From an uncultured Bacteroidia bacterium (GTDB lineage: Bacteria; Bacteroidota; Bacteroidia; Bacteroidales; UBA932), in contig CACZHP010000006.1 in NCBI GenBank assembly GCA_902780935.1, forward strand, positions 1-64,000: 64,000 nucleotides of DNA, given 5' to 3'. The notes under the pieces are model-generated. The model saw only the letters and a list, made by a program, of their open reading frames with translations. It had not been told where the DNA came from and did not search any database. The position numbers and the translations under genes are program-made. Below, piece after piece: positions 36,788 to 47,656 of this stretch (position 1 is its first letter; each line of letters begins with the position of its first letter).

Positions 36788-37642
36788 TTACAGCCTGCAA
36801 GGGAGTGCGGATAGCTGGTACATGAGTGTCTTGGCGATACGCTCATGTCCTTTGGCGTTAGGGTGCAGCCTGTCTGTGTCAGGGTTGGCGAAATACCTGG
36901 CATGTTCCTCAATCATGGGATTCAGTCCGCATAGCGCGTTGAGGTCTATCACCGGCACGCTCCAAACGTTGGCCGTCTCCTTGATTGCCTCCACATAATC
37001 GTGGATATAAAGTCCCAGCCGGTTCGGATAAGATTCCTCAGGTTGAATATTCCCCGCTCCAAATGTTGCGAAAGCCCTGTGGATTGGGGTGAGTAGGATT
37101 ATCTGTTTCTCGGGGAACATCCTCTTCAGCTTGTCCATGGCAATGTTGATCCTGCCTTTCAACGTGTTCCCGTCCATTGAGGGAGTCCTTTTAATCTTCA
37201 GGAACTCAGTGGCGGGATAGCCGAGTGCGGCGGTCACCGTCTGAGGCGTCTCATCATACCACTCACCGAGAAGAACGTCAGATATGTAGTCGTTGGTCCC
37301 TATGAATATCATGATGGCGTCAAACTCATCCCCATGCTCGGCTTTGAGCCTATCCGCCTGATCAGGAATATCATCCCACTGCCGTCCGTTGACCCCATAG
37401 ACATAAGGATGGATCCCCAACCATTTCTGGAGATATCCCCAATAGTGATTGTCACTGAGGCCCGTCCAGTCATGATTGTCCGGATTCTTGGTGTCGCGGT
37501 TTCCGGGCACAACTCTGGCGTCGGTGATTGAATCTCCGAAAAACGCCACTCTGGCGCCCTGCCAAGGGTGGGTGGATGGCGTCTGTGCCACAGCTGCCGC
37601 GCAAAGCAGTGCCATGGACAGGAAAATGATTATCTTTCTCAT
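36788..37642 (-). CDS. Exported SGNH/GDSL hydrolase
   Basis: A 284-residue esterase-like protein with a signal peptide (ending AAAVAQ). Block I is FFGDSITDARV with the Ser nucleophile. Block II Gly is in VYGVNGRQWDDI, block III is FIGTNDYI and block V DTDRLHPNAKGH gives the Asp-x-x-His. Such enzymes often remove acetyl groups from glycans. Its ATG overlaps the dsbD stop by 4 bp, so it is translated with dsbD. Confidence 0.85.
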   Translation of the reverse strand: MRKIIIFLSMALLCAAAVAQTPSTHPWQGARVAFFGDSITDARVVPGNRDTKNPDNHDWTGLSDNHYWGYLQKWLGIHPYVYGVNGRQWDDIPDQADRLKAEHGDEFDAIMIFIGTNDYISDVLLGEWYDETPQTVTAALGYPATEFLKIKRTPSMDGNTLKGRINIAMDKLKRMFPEKQIILLTPIHRAFATFGAGNIQPEESYPNRLGLYIHDYVEAIKETANVWSVPVIDLNALCGLNPMIEEHARYFANPDTDRLHPNAKGHERIAKTLMYQLSALPCRL

Positions 37643-39762
37643 ATCGCCTGATTATTAAACTTCTCTATACCAGACTTCAGGAACTCCACGAATCCGTCAA
37701 CAGAGAGATCATATCCACGGACAGGAACAAGGAGATCCCCGTCAGAACTGAGCAGGGCGTAGTTGGGTTGAGCGTTCACGTTGAACCTTTCCCTGACGAT
37801 GTAGGAGTTGACCCGGCCTATGTCTTTCAGGGTTTTGCCTTCAGGGGTTGTGACCCAGTCCTCTTTGTCGAGTTTGGTCTTGTCGTCGTTGTACAGGAAG
37901 ACCATAATATATTGGTTCTTCATTATTTCCTGCACTTTCGGATCGGACCAGACCCTCTGCTCCATCTCGCGGCAGTTGACGCAGCCGTGGCCGGTTATGT
38001 CCACGAAAACAGGCTTGCCGGAAGCCTTTGAAGCGGCCAGGCCGTCCTCGATGGTGAAATAGCCATTGTACCCCATCGGCAGGCGCAGATTGTATTTCTC
38101 CGCGAACCCGCTCTCGCTGTCAGAGCCCAAGGCGGCGCCAATCGCCCCAGCTCCCTGCGCTTCGCGCCCTATCCGGGTAAATGTCCGCTGGGGCGATTCG
38201 CCACCTTGGGCGTAGGGCGAGTCAGCGTAGTTCCAGACGATAAAGTCCTGAGTCTCAATGGGTGGCAAGTAACCGGAGAGGGCCTTGAGAGGCGCTCCCC
38301 ACATGCCGGGAATCATGTAAACCACAAAGGTGAACACTCCGATTGCCAAGGCGAGCCTTGTCACGGAAAGGCTCTCTACAGGAGAGTCGTTCTTGAAACG
38401 GATCTTCCCGAGAAGGTAGAGCCCGAGAAGGCTGAATACAACGATCCAGATCGCCAGGTAGATCTCCCTGTCCAGTAGTCCCCAATGGTAGGTCTGGTCA
38501 GCCACGCTGAGGAACTTGAACCCCAGGGCGACCTCGATGAATCCGAGCACCACCTTGACGCTGTTAAGCCACGATCCGCTCTTCATCTTTTTTAGGAGCG
38601 AAGGGAACATCGCGAGGATCGTGAACGGCAGTGCGAAGGCCACGCTGAACGCCAGCATAGTGACCATAGGGGTCCAAAACTCGCCGGAAGTGGACTTGAT
38701 CAGCACGGTCCCTACAATCGGTCCGGTGCAAGAGAATGACACCAGGACAAGGGTGAGGGCCATGAAGAAGATTCCCCCAAGGCCACCCTTTCCGGCCTTG
38801 GCGTCGCTCTTGTTGGCAAGGCTGGAAGGAAGCTCGATCTCGAACGCCCCGAAGAAGGAGGCGGCGAAGACCATGAACACGATGAAGAATATGATGTTCG
38901 GGAGCCAGTGTGTGGCGAGCCAGTTGAAAATGTCCGCCGTGACGGCATTGCCCCCAATCAGCCATGTCAGGCCGATGATTATGGATATCGGGACAGTGTA
39001 GAGCAGCACGATGAACAGCCCGTACATGAAGGCTTTGAAACGTCCTTCGGCGGGGGACTGGGACTGCTTCATGAAGAAGGAGATGGTCATGGGGACCATG
39101 GGGAACACGCAGGGGGTCAGCAGCATGGCGAGGCCCCAGAGGATCGCCTCGATGATCAGTCCCCACAGGCTCCCGCTCGCTTCGCCAGCAGCGGAAGACA
39201 ACTCCCCTCTGCGGACATTTTCCCGGCTAGGGCGCGAAGCGTTGGGAGCGGAGGAGACGTTGTCTTCCGCCTTAGAGTTGCCGAGGGTGGCATGGTCCGG
39301 TGCGGCCTGTGCCGCACTTCCGTCACCTAGCGGCACTGAGAACTCCCAGTGCTCGGGGGCGGCGCAGAATTGGTCGTTGCAGCCGCTCCAAGTGATTTCT
39401 CCGGAGACAGTGGCGTTCTCGTCATTGAGCTTGACCTTCTGGGAGAAAACGGCCTCGTCGAAGAACACCTCATCATCCTTGAACATGGAGGGTTTCGTGA
39501 CCTGCTTGAACTCCCCGACAGGGGAAAAGCCCTGGCCGGGTTCTAACTCCAGCGTGGTGGGATTGTACTGGTTGCCGGTGGTGTAGATATGCCAGCCCTT
39601 CTCGATGGTGGCGGTGAAGATCAGCTCATATTCATTATCTCCAGCCGGCTTGGAAGACACCTTCCAGGTCGCGGTGGCATCCGGCGCTTGGCCGAAAGCG
39701 GCGGCGCTCCAAAGGAACGCTGCTGCAATCGATGTGATTATCGTTTTCAGATATTTTCTCAT
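37639..39762 (-). CDS. dsbD: Thiol:disulfide interchange protein DsbD, with two in-frame palindromic insertions
   Basis: A 707-residue protein that passes electrons from cytoplasmic thioredoxin to the periplasm. Order: signal peptide; N-terminal domain with GCNDQFCAAPEHW; a central domain of about eight membrane helices with LTPCVFPMVPM and SFSCTGPIVGTV; C-terminal thioredoxin-like domain with GCVNC (C594, C597). Residues 165-191 and 518-546, in the linkers on each side of the membrane domain, are encoded by two copies of a palindromic repeat placed in opposite orientation (39191-39270 and 38126-38210). The frame stays open through both. It lies 4 bp after rny. Confidence 0.9.
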   Translation of the reverse strand: MRKYLKTIITSIAAAFLWSAAAFGQAPDATATWKVSSKPAGDNEYELIFTATIEKGWHIYTTGNQYNPTTLELEPGQGFSPVGEFKQVTKPSMFKDDEVFFDEAVFSQKVKLNDENATVSGEITWSGCNDQFCAAPEHWEFSVPLGDGSAAQAAPDHATLGNSKAEDNVSSAPNASRPSRENVRRGELSSAAGEASGSLWGLIIEAILWGLAMLLTPCVFPMVPMTISFFMKQSQSPAEGRFKAFMYGLFIVLLYTVPISIIIGLTWLIGGNAVTADIFNWLATHWLPNIIFFIVFMVFAASFFGAFEIELPSSLANKSDAKAGKGGLGGIFFMALTLVLVSFSCTGPIVGTVLIKSTSGEFWTPMVTMLAFSVAFALPFTILAMFPSLLKKMKSGSWLNSVKVVLGFIEVALGFKFLSVADQTYHWGLLDREIYLAIWIVVFSLLGLYLLGKIRFKNDSPVESLSVTRLALAIGVFTFVVYMIPGMWGAPLKALSGYLPPIETQDFIVWNYADSPYAQGGESPQRTFTRIGREAQGAGAIGAALGSDSESGFAEKYNLRLPMGYNGYFTIEDGLAASKASGKPVFVDITGHGCVNCREMEQRVWSDPKVQEIMKNQYIMVFLYNDDKTKLDKEDWVTTPEGKTLKDIGRVNSYIVRERFNVNAQPNYALLSSDGDLLVPVRGYDLSVDGFVEFLKSGIEKFNNQAI
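38126..38210 (-). repeat. Palindromic in-frame element, copy A
   Basis: A 37-nt core (38151-38187; minus strand starts CGGACATTT and contains AGGGCGCGAAGCG) lies between complementary arms 38188-38210 and 38126-38150, which pair at nearly every position apart from a 2-nt bulge and one mismatch. It is inside dsbD in the coding sense and encodes the peptide RTFTRIGREAQGA. Its core differs from copy C at one base and from copy B at four; its arms are unrelated to theirs. Confidence 0.85.
39191..39270 (+). repeat. Palindromic in-frame element, copy B
   Basis: The same 37-nt core (39212-39248) on the plus strand, antisense to dsbD, between arms 39191-39211 and 39249-39270. The outer 12 bp of the arms, GCGGAAGACAAC and GTTGTCTTCCGC, are perfectly complementary; the inner parts pair imperfectly. 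It encodes a linker with APNASRPSRENVRR in DsbD. Confidence 0.83.
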
Positions 39763-39766
39763 GGCG

Positions 39767-41302
39767 TTATTTGGCGTAGGAAACTGAACGGGTCTCTCGG
39801 ATAACAGTGATCTTTACCTGTCCGGGATAAGTCATCTCTTCCTGGATCTTCTGGGCGATGTCGGCCGACAGCCTGGCGGCCTGGTCGTCGCTCACTTCCT
39901 CGGCTCCGACTATTACCCTTAGCTCGCGTCCGGCTTGGATAGCGTAACTCTTTGTCACGCCGGGATATGCGGCGGCGAGATCCTCCATGCCCTTCAGACG
40001 CTTGATGTAGGACTCTATGACCTCCCTGCGGGCTCCGGGACGGGCTCCGGAGATGGCATCACCTATCATGACGATAGGAGATATGATAGAGGTCATCTCG
40101 ATTTCCTCGTGGTGCGCTCCGATGGCGTTGCACACGTCCGGTTTCTCCTTGTATTGCTCGGCCAGCTTCATGCCCAGGAGAGCGTGGGGCAGCTCGGGCT
40201 CTTCCTCGGACACTTTACCGATGTCATGGAGAAGTCCGGCCCTCTTAGCCACCTTCGGGTTGAGTCCCAGCTCGGAAGCCATGATGGCGCAGATGTTCGC
40301 GACCTCGCGGGAGTGCTGCAGGAGGTTCTGACCGTATGAGGAGCGGTATTTCATTCGGCCGATCATCCTGACGAGCTCGATGTTGAGCCCGTGGATGCCG
40401 AGGTCGATGCAAGTCCTCTTGCCAGTCTCAAGGATCTCTTCCTCAAGCTGCTTCTGCACCTTCGCTACCACTTCCTCGATGCGGGCCGGATGGATCCTGC
40501 CGTCCACGACAAGCTGGTGAAGAGCGAGCCTGGCCACCTCCCTGCGGACAGGGTCGAAGGCGGAAAGAAGGATGGCGTCCGGAGTGTCGTCCACCACGAT
40601 TTCGACACCTGTGGCGGCCTCAAGAGCCCTGATATTACGGCCCTCGCGGCCGATTATGCGTCCCTTGATCTCATCATTCTCGATGGGGAAGGTCGTCACG
40701 GCGTTCTCGATGGCGGTCTCGGTGGCGGTCCTCTGTATGGTGTTGATCACTATTCGTTTAGCCTCTTTCGAAGCGTTCAGCCTGGCCTCGTCCATGGTGT
40801 CGTTGATGTAAGCCTGGGCCTCGGTCCTGGCCTCGGCTTTCATGTTTTCCATCAGGATGTTCTTGGCCTCCTGGGCGCTCATTCCGGCGATGGTCTCGAG
40901 CTGTTTGTTAGCCTGGGCGCTGAGTTTCTCATACTCTTCGGCTTTCTTGGCGAGTTTCTCCTGCTGAGCCTGAAGGCTGTTCTTGGCGTTGTCAGCGTCG
41001 CGGAGCTTTTTCTGGAGCTCGGCACTCTGCTGGTTCAAGGTGTTCTCTTTCTGCTTGACGCGGCTCTCGGCCTCCCTGATCTGGTTGTTCTTCTCGTTGA
41101 CGAAGCGCTCATGCTCGGCCTTGAGCTGTAGGAACTTCTCCTTGGCCTGGTGGATCTTGTCGTTCTTGATCCCCTCGGCCTCTATCTCGGCCTTCGCTAT
41201 TATCTCGTTCCTCCGTCCATTCAGAACCATCTTCTGGACCAGGATATAAACCCCAAGGGCAATTGCCGCCCCTATAAGGGCTCCTATAAGGTATGCTATC
41301 AT
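39767..41302 (-). CDS. rny: Ribonuclease Y
   Basis: A 511-residue membrane-anchored endoribonuclease that starts mRNA decay. It has an N-terminal membrane helix (about 3-25), a long coiled coil (about 30-180), a KH domain ([22 protein letters not shown]), and an HD domain ([38 protein letters not shown]) with the metal His-Asp pair. It is transcribed with zapA and the 6S-like RNA upstream and dsbD downstream. Confidence 0.95.
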
Positions 41303-41359
41303 TGTTTTGTTTTAAAATATTGTTAACGTTTTATAATCAATTTGTCAGGGGCGTAACGC

Positions 41360-41399
41360 AAAAGACGGCCGCCGGTGTCGGAAACCGGTCGGTCGTCTG
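41360..41399 (-). terminator. Hairpin terminator between the 6S-like RNA and rny
   Basis: On the minus strand AGACGACCGACCGGT folds with ACCGGCGGCCGTCT and is followed by TTTT. It lies after the 6S-like RNA and about 60 bp before rny, so it may end the RNA or attenuate read-through into rny. Confidence 0.6.
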
Positions 41400-41406
41400 A
41401 GATATT

Positions 41407-41587
41407 AAAAAAAGCCGTTAGTCGCTTGTCTTAAATCTTAAAAAATAAGATTTGAGATCCGGTCCGGTTCGGACTTCCACCGTCGCGCGGGGCGCAATCC
41501 CGGAAGGTAACCTTGGCCTGCCCTTGCCGTCCTGAGTGTTCTCGGTTCAAATAGAACTTGTTGATAAAAGCACGTGGGACTAACGGC
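41407..41587 (-). ncRNA. ssrS: 6S-like RNA downstream of zapA
   Basis: A 181-nt non-coding stretch. Its ends, GCCGTTAGTC (41587-41578) and GACTAACGGC (41423-41414), form a perfect 10-bp closing stem on the minus strand, followed by T7 (41413-41407). The interior is GC-rich with internal pairing (for example CGGG with CCCG) and a large poorly paired centre. Size, closing stem and place after zapA match 6S RNA, which regulates RNA polymerase and sits by zapA in many bacteria. The 5' arm overlaps the zapA stop codon. I have no alignment, so the family name is inferred. Confidence 0.6.
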
Positions 41588-41876
41588 CGTCTTTTTCAAT
41601 ATTCTTTAGGTATGACTCCACATCTTCCTGAAGCCCTTTCGCCTCCTCCCCGGCATCGGAGAGCCTCTTCTGGTAAGTCAGCCTGCTGACCGTCTCGTTG
41701 AGGGCGACGAAGGAGAGCTTGTCAGAGAGAGATTTGTTCGGGAACTTGGCGTCATAGGCGGTCAGTTTCTGGTTGATCGCCTCCGCGGCAAGCCTCATCA
41801 GGCGCTCCATCTCCGGAGAGGAAGCGACCAGAGGATATTCATTGCCCGCGATTTTTATCTTTATGCTCTGTCCCAT
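41580..41876 (-). CDS. zapA: Cell division protein ZapA
   Basis: A 98-residue FtsZ-ring stabiliser. I start at the ATG at 41876 (MGQSIKIKIAGNEYPL); the open frame begins at a TTG four codons upstream. The N-terminal beta part and the C-terminal coiled coil (ALNETVSRLTYQKRLSDAGEE) match the family. The last codons and stop overlap the 5' end of the 6S-like RNA. It starts 1 bp after the upstream coiled-coil gene. Confidence 0.88.
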   Translation of the reverse strand: MGQSIKIKIAGNEYPLVASSPEMERLMRLAAEAINQKLTAYDAKFPNKSLSDKLSFVALNETVSRLTYQKRLSDAGEEAKGLQEDVESYLKNIEKDGR

Positions 41877-41877
41877 T

Positions 41878-42147
41878 CTAATTCTCAAGCAAGGAGATGC
41901 ATTTGTCTATCTCCTTGATCAGTTTCTCGATCTTCTCTTTCGCTGCGGTCCTGTCGCCGGCGGCTCCGAAGGCTTCCGAAAGCTGCAGATTGTTAACCTG
42001 TTGCTCCAGATCACCGATCTGTTTCCTGCAGGACTCGTTGTCGGCCTCGCGCTCGGCGAGGAGAGTCTGGAGCCTCACGCGCTCCGCTTTCTCCGCCTCG
42101 TAGAGTGAGATAAGCTTTTCTATGTCTTTTCTTAAACTTTCAAGCAT
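41878..42147 (-). CDS. Small coiled-coil protein before zapA
   Basis: An 89-residue, almost wholly coiled-coil protein (heptads through EKLISLYEAEKAERVRLQTL, EADNESCRKQIGDLEQQVNN, and AAKEKIEKLIKEIDKCISLL). It is not recognisable as a known family by sequence alone. Its place directly before zapA (1-bp gap) suggests a division-ring role, similar in style to ZapB. First gene of the unit. Confidence 0.7.
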   Translation of the reverse strand: MLESLRKDIEKLISLYEAEKAERVRLQTLLAEREADNESCRKQIGDLEQQVNNLQLSEAFGAAGDRTAAKEKIEKLIKEIDKCISLLEN

Positions 42148-42178
42148 ATCAACCAGGCCGTTTTTCTCCTGCTGAATG

Positions 42179-42210
42179 CAAATGTAGCAAATAATCTTTA
42201 TTCGCGCAAA
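42179..42210 (-). promoter_or_regulatory. Promoter of the coiled-coil/zapA/6S unit
   Basis: On the minus strand TTTG (42210-42207), 20 bases, TACATTTG (42186-42179): both elements exact. It lies 31 bp before the coiled-coil gene. Confidence 0.65.
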
Positions 42211-42215
42211 ATCAC

Positions 42216-42223
42216 TAAATTCG
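42216..42223 (+). promoter_or_regulatory. -7-like element for the COG0523 gene
   Basis: TAAATTCG, one base off TAnnTTTG, 19 bp before the ATG at 42243. Several genes here use this TTCG variant. Confidence 0.35.
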
Positions 42224-42242
42224 CGTTAAAGAAAAAAATGCT

Positions 42243-43397
42243 ATGACTATTACAGTAGAGAACAAGGAGATACCGGTGCTGCTCCTTACCGGATATCTCG
42301 GAAGCGGCAAGACGACGTTGGTCAACAGGATCCTTTCCAACAAGAAAGGTATAAAATTCGCCGTGATAGTGAACGATATAGGAGAGGTGAATATCGATGC
42401 GGACCTGATCCAGAAGGGCGGTGTCGTCGGGCAGACGGACGACAGCCTCGTGCCTCTTCAGAACGGATGTATCTGCTGCACCCTGAAGATGGATCTCGTG
42501 AACCAGATAGACGAGCTTTGCCGGATGAGGAAGTTCGACTATATCGTGATCGAGGCGAGCGGAATCTGCGAGCCGGCTCCCATAGCCCAGACGATATGCT
42601 CCATCCCCAAGTTGTTGCCGGAATATAACAGGGCAGCGACTCCTAAACTGGACGCCATCGTGACTGTCGTTGACGCTTTGAGGATGAAGGATGAGTTCGC
42701 GTCCGGAAAGGCGCTCAAGAGACCGGACATCGAGGAAGATGACCTGGAATCTCTTGTGATCCAGCAGATTGAGTTCTGCAATATCGTATTGCTCAACAAG
42801 GCTTCGGAGGTCTCCCCGGAAGAGCTTGGCGAATTGAGGGAAATCGTGAAGGCCCTTAATCCACAGGCTACGATCCACGAGTGTGACTATGGCGAGATCG
42901 ATCTTGGCCTGATTCTAAATACCGGGATGTTCGACTTCGACAAAGTCGCCACATCGGCAGCCTGGATAGCCGCGATAGAGGGCGATGAGGAGGAAGAACT
43001 CCACAACGAAGAATCCGGCGAGGCTCTCGAGTATAACATCAGCACTTACGTGTATTACCGTAGACCGGCCATGGACATCAACATGCTGGATTACATCGTC
43101 TCGAAGAAGTGGCCTTCCAACATCATCAGGGCGAAGGGGCTTTGCTATTTCGCCGATGAGCCTGACAAATGCTACCTCTTTGAGCAGTCCGGTTCCCAGA
43201 AGTCGATAAAGGAAGCGGGACTCTGGTTCGCCACCATGCCGGCTGACCAGCTTCAGGAGATGATGCGCCGGGACAAGAACCTGCGCCGTGACTGGGATCC
43301 GAAATATGGGGACAGGATGGAGAAGATAGTCTTCATCGGCCGCGACATCGATCCAAAGGCAATCGACGAGTTGTTCGATTCCTGCCTGGCTGAATAA
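42243..43397 (+). CDS. COG0523 / CobW-family GTP-binding metallochaperone
   Basis: A 384-residue GTPase of the COG0523 (ZNG1/CobW) family, which delivers zinc or another metal to client enzymes. Walker A is GYLGSGKT (17-24). The metal site is CICC (76-79), followed by EASGICEPAPIAQ. The C-terminal CobW domain (about 250-384) begins near ISTYVYYRRPAMDI. No zinc-uptake genes are adjacent and no Zur site was recognised, so the metal is open. Confidence 0.9.
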   Translation: MTITVENKEIPVLLLTGYLGSGKTTLVNRILSNKKGIKFAVIVNDIGEVNIDADLIQKGGVVGQTDDSLVPLQNGCICCTLKMDLVNQIDELCRMRKFDYIVIEASGICEPAPIAQTICSIPKLLPEYNRAATPKLDAIVTVVDALRMKDEFASGKALKRPDIEEDDLESLVIQQIEFCNIVLLNKASEVSPEELGELREIVKALNPQATIHECDYGEIDLGLILNTGMFDFDKVATSAAWIAAIEGDEEEELHNEESGEALEYNISTYVYYRRPAMDINMLDYIVSKKWPSNIIRAKGLCYFADEPDKCYLFEQSGSQKSIKEAGLWFATMPADQLQEMMRRDKNLRRDWDPKYGDRMEKIVFIGRDIDPKAIDELFDSCLAE

Positions 43398-43591
43398 TAA
43401 GCAAAACAAAAAGGTCGTTACCTCACGGCAGCGACCTTTCCCACTTAATACAAACCTAATTTATGAATAAAACGTAAGATCTTCTATCCAAGCAAATATA
43501 AGGCATTTTTTGTGCCGCAAAAATAGGGATGACCGCTCATTGAACTAAAGGATAAAACTTCTCTACTAAAAGCGATTATTTTTTATAAATC

Positions 43592-44359
43592 ATGAAAGCC
43601 AAACGACTCATAGCCATTCTGATTGCCTTGGTGGTCTGCTCTTTAGCCCAGGCTCGGAAAAAACCCCTGATCGGTGTTGTGCCGGGGTGTAGTGGAGAAA
43701 TGAACCTGGTTCTCAGCCGTTCTTATACTGACGCTGTCGCCAGGGCCGGAGGAATCCCGGTGATTCTGCCACAGGTGGATGACGCTCTCACCGCAGCCGA
43801 GTACATCAGCCGTCTTGACGGAATATTGTTCACTGGAGGTGTCGACGTCGATCCATCCCGCTACGGCGAGACGGTTCTCAATGAATCGGTTGAGATAGAT
43901 CTTCGGAGGGATTCCATCGAGTTTCTTTACGCGGAAGCCGCTCTCCTGAAAAGATTGCCCATCATGGCCATTTGTCGAGGTGAGCAGCTCATGAATGTCG
44001 TTCTGGGAGGATCACTGTACCAGGATCTTCCCAGCCAGAAGCCGGGGGATATTCCTCATCGCCAGAAAACTGATTCGAGGTATCCTACCCATTCCATCTC
44101 AGTCGCTCCGGGATCTATTTTGCATAGGGCTATGGGCGAGACCGAACTCATGGTCAACACTTCTCACCATCAGGCGGTTAAGCGCCCCTCCGACAAAGTT
44201 GTCGTGACCGCATATTCACCGGACGGGGTGGTCGAGGCGTACGAGAGCGGAATCAAGGGTCAGTGGATTCTCGCGGTGCAGTTCCATCCTGAGCAGCTGG
44301 TCCGCGCGGACGACAAGTGGCTCGCCTTGTTCAGGACTTTTGTCAAAGAATGCCGTTAG
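43592..44359 (+). CDS. Exported class I glutamine amidotransferase (gamma-glutamyl hydrolase type)
   Basis: A 255-residue peptidase C26 protein, the PuuD/gamma-glutamyl-GABA hydrolase family. Catalytic Cys128 is in MAICRGEQLMN, and the His-Glu pair in AVQFHPEQL. A signal peptide (1-~21, ending SLAQA) sends it out of the cytoplasm, unlike E. coli PuuD. It likely hydrolyses gamma-glutamyl bonds in peptides. Its TAG stop is immediately followed by the ATG of the GH106 gene. The 194-bp gap before it shows only an inverted repeat at 43410-43439 and no clear promoter. Confidence 0.85.
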   Translation: MKAKRLIAILIALVVCSLAQARKKPLIGVVPGCSGEMNLVLSRSYTDAVARAGGIPVILPQVDDALTAAEYISRLDGILFTGGVDVDPSRYGETVLNESVEIDLRRDSIEFLYAEAALLKRLPIMAICRGEQLMNVVLGGSLYQDLPSQKPGDIPHRQKTDSRYPTHSISVAPGSILHRAMGETELMVNTSHHQAVKRPSDKVVVTAYSPDGVVEAYESGIKGQWILAVQFHPEQLVRADDKWLALFRTFVKECR

Positions 44360-47300
44360 ATGAGGCTCCTCCAGGTCTTTTTCTCCATCTTGTTGGCTAT
44401 GATCCCATTACCTGGTCATAGCCAGGAACTCGTTGTCATTTTCAATACTGTCCCGAACCAGTATAAACCCCAGGTCTGGTGGCATTGGATGGATGGGAAT
44501 GTCTCCCAGGAGGGGATAAGGAAGGATCTGGAATGGATGAGACGCTCCGGCATTGGTGGGGTTCACCAGTTCGATGCCGGGGGTATTGATATGCCCAGGG
44601 CGGCCAAGGTGAAACTCCCATATCTGTCAGATGGATGGAAGGACGCTTTCAGATATGCGGTCTCTCTGGCTGATTCTTTTGGAATGGATGTCACCATAGC
44701 GAGCGCTCCCGGCTGGAGTTCTACAGGCGGGACTTGGGTGAAGCCTGCGGACGCTGTCAAGAAACTGGAGTGGCGGTCTGTTGACGTGGATGGCGGGAAA
44801 GTCGAGGTCAGCCTTCCGGATCTCTACAGGGTCACGGGACCTTATCAGGATTTCTTTCAAGGCAATGACAGGGTGCAGATCGCGCCCTATGGCAAGGATC
44901 TGTTCGTGCTTGCTGTCAAGAGATCCCCTTCGGACCGTTCAATGGAAGAAATGGGGGCAGAGATCGAAGTCTCGGACACTTTGATTACCGTCAAATTGAA
45001 CAGGAGATATTCCATCAAGGCGTTCACCCTGAAGTCGATGTCCATGGGAGGAAGGCCGAGGGAAGGGGAGCCTGTATGGCGTAATGTCCTGGAGTGCAGT
45101 GATGACGGAGTCTCATGGAAGGAGATACATAAAGTGTCCCCTTCGAGACTGCCCTATATGACAGAAGACATCAGCCCTGTCAGGGCCAGATGGTTCCGGG
45201 TCAGGGGAGAGAAACTTGAGGCGCTGGACCTGTTCACGACCCGGAAGGTGAACCATTCGGAGGAACTTGGCGGATTTAGTAATGTGCCAGATTTCAATAA
45301 GTTCCATATCCCTCCAGGGAGAAGATTTTTTAGCCGGGGACGCTATGTCAAAACCGGTGATGTCATCGACCTGACAGGGAAGATGACTCCTGACGGTCAT
45401 CTTTCATGCTCCCTTCCGGGAGGCCGCTGGAGAATATACCGTTTCGGATGGTCGATTACCGGAAAGGTCAACCATCCTGCCTCTCCCGAGGCCACCGGAC
45501 TGGAGGTTGACAAACTTGACAAGGACGCCTGGATGAGGTATTTCCGTCATTATCTCGACCTTTACAAAGATGCCTCCGGAGGCCGGCTTGGCGCAGAAGG
45601 GATAAGATACCTTCTAACTGACAGTTACGAGGCGGGTTCTTTCACATGGACCGCGAATCTCGCCCGTGAATTCAGGGACCGCAGGGGATATGACTTGCGT
45701 CCCTGGCTCCCCGTCCTGGCCGGAGAAATCATCGGCGGCCCCCGGGAGAGCGAGGGTTTCCTGTGGGACTGGAGGAGGACACTCGGTGAGCTGTTTGTGG
45801 AGAACTATCAGAGAATCAGGGATTTGGTGGAGGAATATAACCTGGCGGGCTACTACTGTGAGACCCACGAGGGCGGAAGGGCATACGTCGGTGACGGCAT
45901 GGATCCGAAACTCTCGGCTTCGATACCTATGGCCGCGATTTGGATGGAGAACACTCCGACAGGCTCCAGTATTCCTTCGTCCGTGGCCGACATCAGGGAG
46001 TCTGCTTCGGCCGCCCATATCTCCGGAGCAGGGATAGTCGCCTCGGAGACTTTCTCTGTCAATGGTGACGAAGGAAGGGCATACACCTATTGCCCTGAGA
46101 ATATGAAATATGTGGCTGATGTCGCTATGGCGGCGGGGGTCAACCGTTTCGTTATCCACGAGAGCGCCTCCCAGCCGAACGACTCGTACCTTCCCGGGCT
46201 TCAGCTTTTCCGTTATGGCCAGTGGCTTCACCGGAATGAGACTTGGGGAGAGTATGCCTGGGTGCTGATGGATTACCTCGGAAGGTCAAGCGCCTTGCTG
46301 AGGCAGGGGATTCCTGTCGCGGACATACTTCTATATTACGGTGAGGACAGCAATGTGACATCCTTGTACGGCGGAGGCACATTCGCCTCGTTGCCCCAAG
46401 TCCCTGCCGGTTATGAATATGATTTCGCAAATCCAACTGTCCTCAAGTCATATCTCGAGTCAGTTGTCAGTGTCGCCATTGCCTCCGGTGACGGCCGTAA
46501 TGCGCCTGGGCGGACATTTACCCGGAGAGGGCGCGAAGCGCAGGGAGCCCAGGCGCCTTTTACGGCCGCACCGGACGAGGCTGAGACTTTGCTGGAAAGT
46601 GCTGGAGGGACGAGCTACAAGGTGTTGTGGCTGGACGGGAATATCCGGACGATGTCTGCGGAGATGCTCCAGAAGATCAAGGAATATGCGGATGCCGGGG
46701 TGAGGATCTGCGGGGCTCCTCCGGAGCGACCAGCTGGTCTGAACGCGGACAAGAAAGCCTTCAGGAGAATCGTGAAAGACATTTGGGAAAGCGGCAGGGA
46801 GAATGTCTATGGATCGCTCGATGAAGCCCTGGAGGGCATCGCCCCAGACTGCGTCGCTGAGTTTGACGGTGTCCCCGCGGGCCCTGAGAAGTTCCGTTAT
46901 GTCCACCGCTCGATGGAAGACGGCACACAGATATACTGGGTCAGGAACTTCTCAGGGAAAGACGCCATGGCGAGAATCAGCTTCAGGGACTCGGGTCCTT
47001 ACGCCGCCCTCTTTAATCCTGAAAACGGGAAAATATTCACATTGGACACCTTCCTTCAAGACGGGCGGACTCTTGCGGATATCCCGATGCTATCCACTGA
47101 CGCCTTCTTCGTGGTTTTCTCGCCCAATCCCTTCCCTTATCCGACCTTGCCCTCCTGTCGTCCTGAGCGAAGCGAAGGATCTTTCCCCATCCCCGGCCCT
47201 TGGACCGTAACCTTCGACCAGAAGGGCGGAGGTCAGGTGAGGGAGGTGTTCATAAGCCTGGGGTCCTGGACCGAGAGCGGCGATCCCGTGGTCAAGTATT

Positions 47301-47656
47301 TTTCAGGCACCGCAGTTTACCGTACTACCTTCTTCCTGGAATCCGGCTTCCCGGTTGGGGATGCCCCCATATACTTGGACCTCGGATCAGTGAAGAACAT
47401 CGCTGAGGTCTTCGTCAACGGAAAACCTTGCGGCGTGTTGTGGAAAGCCCCTTTCAGAACCGAAGACCTCTCCGGGGCCCTGCGTCCTGGGAAGAACTCA
47501 CTGGAAATCAAGGTGACGAACCTCTGGCGCAACCGCATGATAGGGGATGTCCAGCCTGGCGAGACCCGCCCTGTCACGGCCATCCGTCGCTTCTATAAAG
47601 CAGGCGACTCCCTCCTGCCTTCAGGCCTTCTTGGCCCTGTCGTGATCACTCGGTGA
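44360..47656 (+). CDS. GH106 alpha-L-rhamnosidase with two in-frame repeat insertions
   Basis: A 1098-residue exported glycoside hydrolase, with a signal peptide ending PGHSQ. The start PQVWWHWMDGNVSQEGIRKDLEWM, GIGGVHQFDAGG and TIASAPGWSSTGG identify family GH106 (alpha-L-rhamnosidase). LTDSYEAGSFTW and YYCETHEGGRAYVGDG lie in the catalytic region. A C-terminal beta-sandwich domain (about 960-1080; VKNIAEVFVNGKPCGVLWKAPF) follows. Two segments look foreign: residues 711-737 (palindromic element copy C, RTFTRRGREAQGA) and about 932-942 (SCRPERSEGSF). The frame is intact, so the protein may still be active. Its 3' end overlaps tamB by 11 bp in antisense. Confidence 0.85.
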   Translation: MRLLQVFFSILLAMIPLPGHSQELVVIFNTVPNQYKPQVWWHWMDGNVSQEGIRKDLEWMRRSGIGGVHQFDAGGIDMPRAAKVKLPYLSDGWKDAFRYAVSLADSFGMDVTIASAPGWSSTGGTWVKPADAVKKLEWRSVDVDGGKVEVSLPDLYRVTGPYQDFFQGNDRVQIAPYGKDLFVLAVKRSPSDRSMEEMGAEIEVSDTLITVKLNRRYSIKAFTLKSMSMGGRPREGEPVWRNVLECSDDGVSWKEIHKVSPSRLPYMTEDISPVRARWFRVRGEKLEALDLFTTRKVNHSEELGGFSNVPDFNKFHIPPGRRFFSRGRYVKTGDVIDLTGKMTPDGHLSCSLPGGRWRIYRFGWSITGKVNHPASPEATGLEVDKLDKDAWMRYFRHYLDLYKDASGGRLGAEGIRYLLTDSYEAGSFTWTANLAREFRDRRGYDLRPWLPVLAGEIIGGPRESEGFLWDWRRTLGELFVENYQRIRDLVEEYNLAGYYCETHEGGRAYVGDGMDPKLSASIPMAAIWMENTPTGSSIPSSVADIRESASAAHISGAGIVASETFSVNGDEGRAYTYCPENMKYVADVAMAAGVNRFVIHESASQPNDSYLPGLQLFRYGQWLHRNETWGEYAWVLMDYLGRSSALLRQGIPVADILLYYGEDSNVTSLYGGGTFASLPQVPAGYEYDFANPTVLKSYLESVVSVAIASGDGRNAPGRTFTRRGREAQGAQAPFTAAPDEAETLLESAGGTSYKVLWLDGNIRTMSAEMLQKIKEYADAGVRICGAPPERPAGLNADKKAFRRIVKDIWESGRENVYGSLDEALEGIAPDCVAEFDGVPAGPEKFRYVHRSMEDGTQIYWVRNFSGKDAMARISFRDSGPYAALFNPENGKIFTLDTFLQDGRTLADIPMLSTDAFFVVFSPNPFPYPTLPSCRPERSEGSFPIPGPWTVTFDQKGGGQVREVFISLGSWTESGDPVVKYFSGTAVYRTTFFLESGFPVGDAPIYLDLGSVKNIAEVFVNGKPCGVLWKAPFRTEDLSGALRPGKNSLEIKVTNLWRNRMIGDVQPGETRPVTAIRRFYKAGDSLLPSGLLGPVVITR
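46492..46568 (+). repeat. Palindromic in-frame element, copy C
   Basis: The 37-nt core (46511-46547) lies between arms 46492-46510 and 46548-46568, which are complementary over CGGCCGTAA and GCGCCTGGG with a small bulge. It is read in the same frame as copy A and encodes RTFTRRGREAQGA inside the GH106 protein. Confidence 0.85.
47157..47184 (+). repeat. Short dispersed repeat (CRPERSEGS-encoding)
   Basis: The segment around CCTGAGCGAAGCGAAGGATC encodes CRPERSEGS. I know this peptide as the mark of a short repeat scattered through many bacterial genomes, normally between genes. Here it lies in frame in a low-complexity linker of the GH106 protein, before the C-terminal beta-sandwich domain. 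It contains GCGAAGC, also found in the palindromic element core. Confidence 0.7.

Follow-up and report, generated by a model that had tools for sequence, protein, structure and literature searches.

A multicopy palindromic DNA element with a conserved core and matched, changing arms in genes of an uncultured Bacteroidia bacterium

The window, i.e., the whole 64,000-nt stretch of DNA analysed, carries dsbD (37639 to 39762, reverse strand, 707 aa) and a gene for a GH106 alpha-L-rhamnosidase (44360 to 47656, forward strand, 1098 aa; PF17132, E 7.7e-238). Two palindromic inserts lie in dsbD. Copy A (38126 to 38210, reverse strand, sense to the gene) has a 37-nt core at 38151 to 38187 (reverse strand) between arms at 38188 to 38210 and 38126 to 38150, and copy B (39191 to 39270, forward strand, antisense to the gene) has its core at 39212 to 39248 (forward strand) between arms at 39191 to 39211 and 39249 to 39270. 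Copy C (46492 to 46568, forward strand) is in the GH106 gene in the sense orientation, with its core at 46511 to 46547 (forward strand) and arms at 46492 to 46510 and 46548 to 46568. A sequence-only reading of this DNA had proposed that the three loci share the core, that complementary arms of 19 to 25 nt enclose each one, and that neither gene loses its frame. A degenerate 30-nt core pattern bore out the first point, matching each locus without mismatch (38158 to 38187, reverse strand; 39212 to 39241 and 46511 to 46540, forward strand), and direct reading of the sequence confirmed that the cores of A and C differ at one position and those of A and B at four. The arm lengths, 19 to 25 nt, were also as proposed. 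The reading frame is open through all three copies, and all three hairpins fold, with single-stranded DNA fold energies of -30.6, -22.2 and -24.7 kcal/mol for A, B and C (z of -5.1, -3.6 and -3.4; in each case none of 200 shuffles folded as well). The 13-nt motif alone was found three times in the window with up to two mismatches, against 2.03 expected, which is not significant, in contrast with the longer core. The peptides encoded are RTFTRIGREAQGA for copy A and RTFTRRGREAQGA for copy C; copy B, antisense to dsbD, encodes a different one.

The same peptides at the same places in DsbD and GH106 orthologs had been named as one finding that would speak against an element, and both dsbD inserts are absent from an alignment of 29 relatives. 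At the site of copy A, genomes G066 and G422 (L200, L423) have a common arm type in antisense orientation and the own genome has other arms in sense orientation; at several other sites the own genome resembles G066 more closely (identity up to 90%). The element at this site seems to have been replaced. In one relative (L053, genome G027), the DsbD linkers have runs of a VILSDPSVI/SDSEGS-type repeat peptide at both positions that the element uses.

Other repeats occur nearby. A second type, GTCGTCCTGAGCGAAGCGAAGGATC, lies at 47157 to 47181 of the window, in the same GH106 gene as copy C. Its centre, GAGCGAAGCGA, was seen in 27 contexts in the loci, about 20 of them with arms ATTCT/AGAAT or ATCCT/AGGAT, and in relatives it is present at some linkers that the fixed-core element also uses. 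The start of this repeat resembles CGTC/TGTC-tagged REPs, and its family is separate from the fixed-core element. A further palindromic insert, with arms CAGTCCAGAC/GTCTGGACTTG and a GC-rich centre, was seen in L110 (5018 to 5041) and L250 (424 to 447). It lies about 30 nt from a fixed-core element in genome G300, and part of it recurs in the own genome, where a Y1 transposase gene is about 1 kb away.

The search for further copies of the core that the sequence-only reading had proposed found many, both in the own genome and in related species. In the own genome (3.05 Mb), the degenerate 30-nt core with up to three mismatches was found at 14 places and a second pattern at 15, compared with none for a reversed-pattern control. 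A covariance model built from 86 copies retrieved 16, the 16th, found by the model only, having a longer mini-hairpin, GTCGCGAAGCGAC. In a genus sample of 400 genomes, 27 matched the pattern with up to two mismatches, and the six richest had 24 to 41 copies; the reversed control matched in four of the 400, so some single two-mismatch matches are probably due to chance. The covariance model matched 98 of the 400, own genome included, with the best 12 candidates per genome scored and per-genome counts thus being lower bounds. Own genome apart, it matched none of 392 in a draw of 393 genomes from the order and none of 295 in a draw of 296 from the phylum (best 12 and 17 candidates per genome, respectively, and stricter filters). 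The element is therefore genus-restricted within the draws searched.

The pattern was also present in at least 114 stretches of a named genome collection, 110 of those listed being Bacteroidales or Bacteroidia assemblies, among which the labels rumen, omasum or abomasum are frequent. The four outside matches (Chlorobium, Chlorobiaceae, Oscillospiraceae and Sphingopyxis), each single, look like chance. Phage carriage was rejected, as the exact 20-base pattern is absent from a viral contig collection. A literature search by titles and abstract openings, with subscription literature outside its scope, found no published account of the element, and the core-string matches listed were to an 11-base string only. 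A search for other families with a fixed core, using 11-mers and strict arms, found none.

The core consensus is CGRVCATTTWCCCGGNYAGGGCGCGRAGCGYAGSGAG. In 149 copies taken with no selection on pairing, the arm-arm alignment score reached at least 12 in 86%, compared with 3% when arms were swapped between copies. Omitting L119 and L170, which are not Bacteroidales, and L229, L231 and L247, which have no genome assignment, left a set of 144 copies. The covariance model that had been suggested was built from an alignment of 86 copies. These belong to the 107 (of the 144) in which 11 or more of the 16 arm pairs form, G-T being accepted as a pairing. Arm covariation was strong: the 86 copies gave 550 double-change cells versus 190 +/- 12 in shuffles. 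The number of pairs with any double change (17 versus 16.5) did not beat the shuffles. Since this alignment was chosen for pairing, its covariation counts lean towards pairing, whereas the arm scores of the 149 copies and the mismatch counts of the 144 given below do not. The claim that the arms of different copies are unrelated held in part. Arms at unrelated sites differ by 0.633, close to the 0.610 expected by chance from column composition, but some arms cluster across sites, and those at common sites diverge gradually.

Pairing extends into the core, where copies with CGAGC have AGCGAG and those with CGACC have AGGGAG (39 C-G and 27 G-C at column pair 20-50). In the proposed fold, the stem would continue via a C-G pair, two G/A mismatches, one covarying pair and one constant pair, and then open into a junction, from which a CCC/GGG hairpin and a GCGAAGC mini-hairpin would branch. 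The stems of these two hairpins are near-invariant in the 86 copies, and so covariation gives them no support there; all support for the mini-hairpin comes from paired changes in distant relatives (CGC-GAA-GCG, TCGC-GAA-GCGA and TTGC-GAA-GCAA). The run C-G, G/A, A/G, G-C resembles a tandem sheared G-A motif, and GCGAAGC resembles a DNA mini-hairpin of very high stability. Tandem arrays were seen at six loci (L216, L116, L118, L184, L152 and L114), with the left arm and core repeated in units of about 54 to 73 nt and the right arm at the end only. They probably arose by slippage.

We counted copies inside and outside genes, as proposed, using a simple open-frame rule rather than a gene finder. 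Of 135 placeable copies, 95 (at 39 sites) fall within a single open frame, 33 between two frames and seven beside one. The neighbours are on opposite strands for 19 of the 33 between-frame copies, and in none of the 14 others do both frames enter the element, so no clear gene disruption is seen. Besides DsbD and GH106, Pfam hosts include a tRNA methyltransferase (MnmA), methionine synthase, BacA (UppP), NAD synthase and ABC proteins; in the scan of ten hosts, L013 had no match. In a genus known from ruminant guts, the element provides a further way for proteins to become longer, and annotators should regard peptides such as RTFTRIGREAQGA as element-derived. A core variant free of stops seemed enriched in the frame that would otherwise contain TAG (Fisher p 3e-8), but this result was discarded as circular, because being inside one open reading frame presupposes a stop-free frame; the variant is present in that frame in 7 of 13 copies and, counted by site, in 4 of 10 (p 0.12).

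An RNA stem should tolerate G-U pairs. Over the 16 arm columns of the 144 copies, G-T/T-G mismatches occupied 132 of 2304 cells and A-C/C-A mismatches 139, and the 86 aligned copies, with three outer columns left out, gave 41 and 43 of 1118 cells. With no preference of G-T over A-C, arm pairing looks to be kept at the level of DNA rather than RNA. Within genes, 47 copies are sense and 48 antisense. A search of Rfam with positions 37500 to 47000 of the window yielded three sub-threshold matches at E<=1, none over an element. Conservation of the core does not track the reading frame or, on present evidence, an RNA fold.

The 144 copies represent 64 sites, 32 of which have copies from at least two genomes. 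They provided 144 between-genome pairs, all unique but not independent, as several pairs have sites in common, which we binned by flank identity (>=95, 88-95, 82-88, 76-82 and 60-76%). With falling flank identity, arm difference rose from 0.021 to 0.125, 0.266, 0.409 and 0.465, compared with 0.633 at unrelated sites, and double Watson-Crick changes per 16 pairs went from 0.0 to 0.3, 1.4, 2.3 and 2.5. Core divergence was low (0.018, 0.024, 0.056, 0.114 and 0.098; unrelated sites, 0.116), although these figures are biased in that the copies had been found by their core. At 76-82% flank identity, orthologs differ nearly as much as unrelated sites do (0.114 versus 0.116), indicating that the core is not frozen within the variation that the family allows. 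Orientation was mixed at shared sites, with 64 of the 144 pairs flipped (0/3, 3/9, 17/36, 26/64 and 18/32 by falling identity). At arm positions 9 to 24, these 64 were closer in element orientation in 34 and 40 cases and in genome orientation in 5 and 7. Arms thus usually turn with the core, which fits an inversion near the outer ends and also reinsertion in reverse.

Because the copies had been found by core, orthologous alleles of G114 sites were fetched nearly all by flank alone. This gave 72 of 90 possible alleles, from six genomes, for 15 G114 loci that hold 16 of the 24 pattern copies of G114; the remaining 18 had no match or one flank only among the matches listed, and two of the 72 (L390 and L391) were taken on one flank, a copy there being already known. 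The number of core edits was 0 in 22 alleles, 1 to 5 in 12, 6 to 9 in none and 10 to 14 in 38, with 11 to 14 in 40 shuffled alleles. The core is therefore near-intact (34 of 72) or absent (38 of 72), and none is half-decayed. The type of core junction agreed in 63% of orthologous pairs, 41% of same-genome pairs and 33% of other pairs. As site predicts core type better than genome does, genome-wide homogenisation of the core was rejected. Between two species, L004 and L110 are identical over about 40 bases on one side of the element and 85 on the other, in wider flanks that are 81-87% identical, and their three differences all fall in the first ten core bases between these long identical flanks. 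Local exchange of cores may occur, this pair and the greater agreement within genomes (41 versus 33%) being hints of it.

Empty alleles mostly lack both arms (L185 versus five genomes, L122 versus two, copy B versus G017 and L010 versus G066), and one arm type is found at ten sites in ten genomes (single linkage, <=9/32 differences), indicating that whole hairpins spread. Outside the common part of the arm, the stem is lengthened at each of the ten sites by a few complementary pairs peculiar to that site, as judged by eye; the outer ends of hairpins thus seem to incorporate host DNA. An origin of both arms by fold-back copying of the target was rejected, since most empty alleles lack both by eye. 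Homing with co-conversion of flanks was likewise dismissed, because 148 flank comparisons, with some pairs compared in either direction, showed no rise of identity close to the element. The copies do not share ends as those of a MITE would, and no target duplication is visible in the insertion alignments, though the DNA at the junctions evolves fast.

In four comparisons (L176/L232, L111/L224, L006/L398 and L008/L417), a piece of an arm occurs where the core is absent, and these pieces may be deletion remnants. At the L008 site, genome G066 retains one arm with eight bases of the core, and G170 has arms but no core; at the L006 site, a single arm is left in G066. The losses seen look like deletions. 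Linkers are reused: in dsbD, at the L008 site and in further places, the linker that holds the element holds a different repeat or different arms in relatives. In a gene tree of one 930-bp region, G017, which has no model match, stands beside the own genome inside the carrier clade (support 0.89); its position in this one gene fits wholesale loss of the element.

The reading that we favour, by a little over an even chance, is that of an old, non-autonomous mobile DNA palindrome with a conserved core module, in which template switching at replication both preserves the match between the arms and flips them. The element would act as folded DNA, presumably through a single-stranded intermediate. 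Whole hairpins would occasionally enter new places and survive in protein linkers and at gene ends, where the frame is kept. Template switching between the arms during replication would repair mismatches, so that the arms drift as a matched pair, and would invert the unit at a site, giving mixed orientation. Template switching has been reported to homogenise arms and invert spacers (PMC8604942) and to yield multibase compensatory changes (PMC8794818). Both signatures, arm homogenisation and inversion, are present here, in the rise of double changes and the flipped pairs. Template switching explains neither the constant core nor the spread, and we therefore infer selection on the folded core DNA via a putative factor, in that most core substitutions would be rejected and a putative protein acting in trans would read the core.

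Other explanations account for part of these data. The element might be a cis-acting DNA site useful to the host, where a nucleoid, replication or repair protein binds the hairpin and both the core and the capacity for cruciform formation are maintained by selection, site by site. The low core divergence at shared sites, cores either near-intact or absent, a core type that tracks site more than genome and the indifference to orientation would all suit such a site, which we nevertheless consider unlikely given that 302 of the 400 genus genomes have no model match, that one of those without a match, G017, neighbours the own genome in the gene tree, and that the near relative G066 has two copies and deletion remnants. 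To our mind it is still less probable that the element is REP-like and depends for its movement on a REP-associated tyrosine transposase (HUH, Y1) supplied in trans, looking different because its core belongs to no family yet described. Of 21 genomes tested, 18 have Y1 genes (17 of them above the cut-off), including all nine copy-rich carriers, the three genomes without them (G013, G091 and G363) are not among the model-matching ones, and REPs are reported to lie in genes in some cases (PMC3733652). However, genomes without a match, such as G017, G016 and G003, also have Y1 genes, the ends carry no GTAG- or CGTC-type tag and the outer arms differ by site. From 49 Y1 matches, 30 loci were fetched with up to about 1.5 kb on either side, and not one contains the core; a linked RAYT/Y1 mobiliser is not supported.

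A structured RNA acting in the transcripts of host genes would agree with the strong covariation and the fold, but the near-equal numbers of sense and antisense copies in genes, the mixed orientation at shared sites, the absence of a wobble preference and of Rfam matches over the elements at E<=1 make it very improbable. Practically no credence is left for coincidental or homologous protein sequence in place of an element; the core pattern matches, in unrelated genes and between genes, and the lack of both inserts in DsbD of the 29 relatives refute it.

Returning to the mobile palindrome, we put forward one extension of it as a speculation with the balance against it. The element might represent a new class of mobile DNA that passes on a small structured core as its heritable unit and has a disposable long stem, rewritten strand-to-strand at each site and extended into host DNA, the core being kept by selection on folded DNA via a putative dedicated protein. 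If so, copies would have shape and core in common, but not stem. The family records, in many natural copies, how hairpins evolve within living genes, with paired arm changes and a mixing of orientation with divergence, and it makes the persistence and spread of palindromes in bacterial chromosomes directly testable.

The sequence-only reading had likened the element in its behaviour to Rickettsia palindromic elements (RPEs) or REPs, and the spread of copies, the arm covariation and the absence from DsbD of relatives support a dispersed palindrome of that kind. Like RPEs, which are described as palindromic inserts in frame in unrelated protein genes (PMC3733652), it is inserted in frame in unrelated protein genes. 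It is set apart from RPEs by description: RPE-4 and RPE-6 are placed among CGTC-tagged repeats (PMC3733652), whereas this element is untagged, with copy-specific arms and the core as its constant part. GTAG and CGTC REPs are likewise reported as short many-copy palindromes, some of them intragenic and some subfamilies having alternative complementary stem bases, but with stems mostly of 6-9 bp and a tetranucleotide tag (PMC3733652). The element has stems of about 20 bp, unlike the 8-9 bp stem with a CGTC or TGTC tag of CGTC REPs, RPE-4 and RPE-6, and its outer arm ends have no common tag, GTAG included (by eye; 86-copy consensus). Unlike REP/RAYT systems, it has a 37-nt structured core and no linked transposase. 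Coding palindromes of Nematomorpha mitochondria similarly maintain matched arms in protein genes, for which the authors suggested a repeat-conversion mechanism; no common core or dispersed family is described in the part of that paper available (PMC6649704). The inverted repeats attributed to template switching in yeast (PMC8604942) and in RNA genes (PMC8794818) resemble the element in arm homogenisation, compensatory changes and spacer inversion. As far as the available parts of these two papers go, those are unrelated single repeats, whereas the element here is a multicopy family with one conserved spacer.
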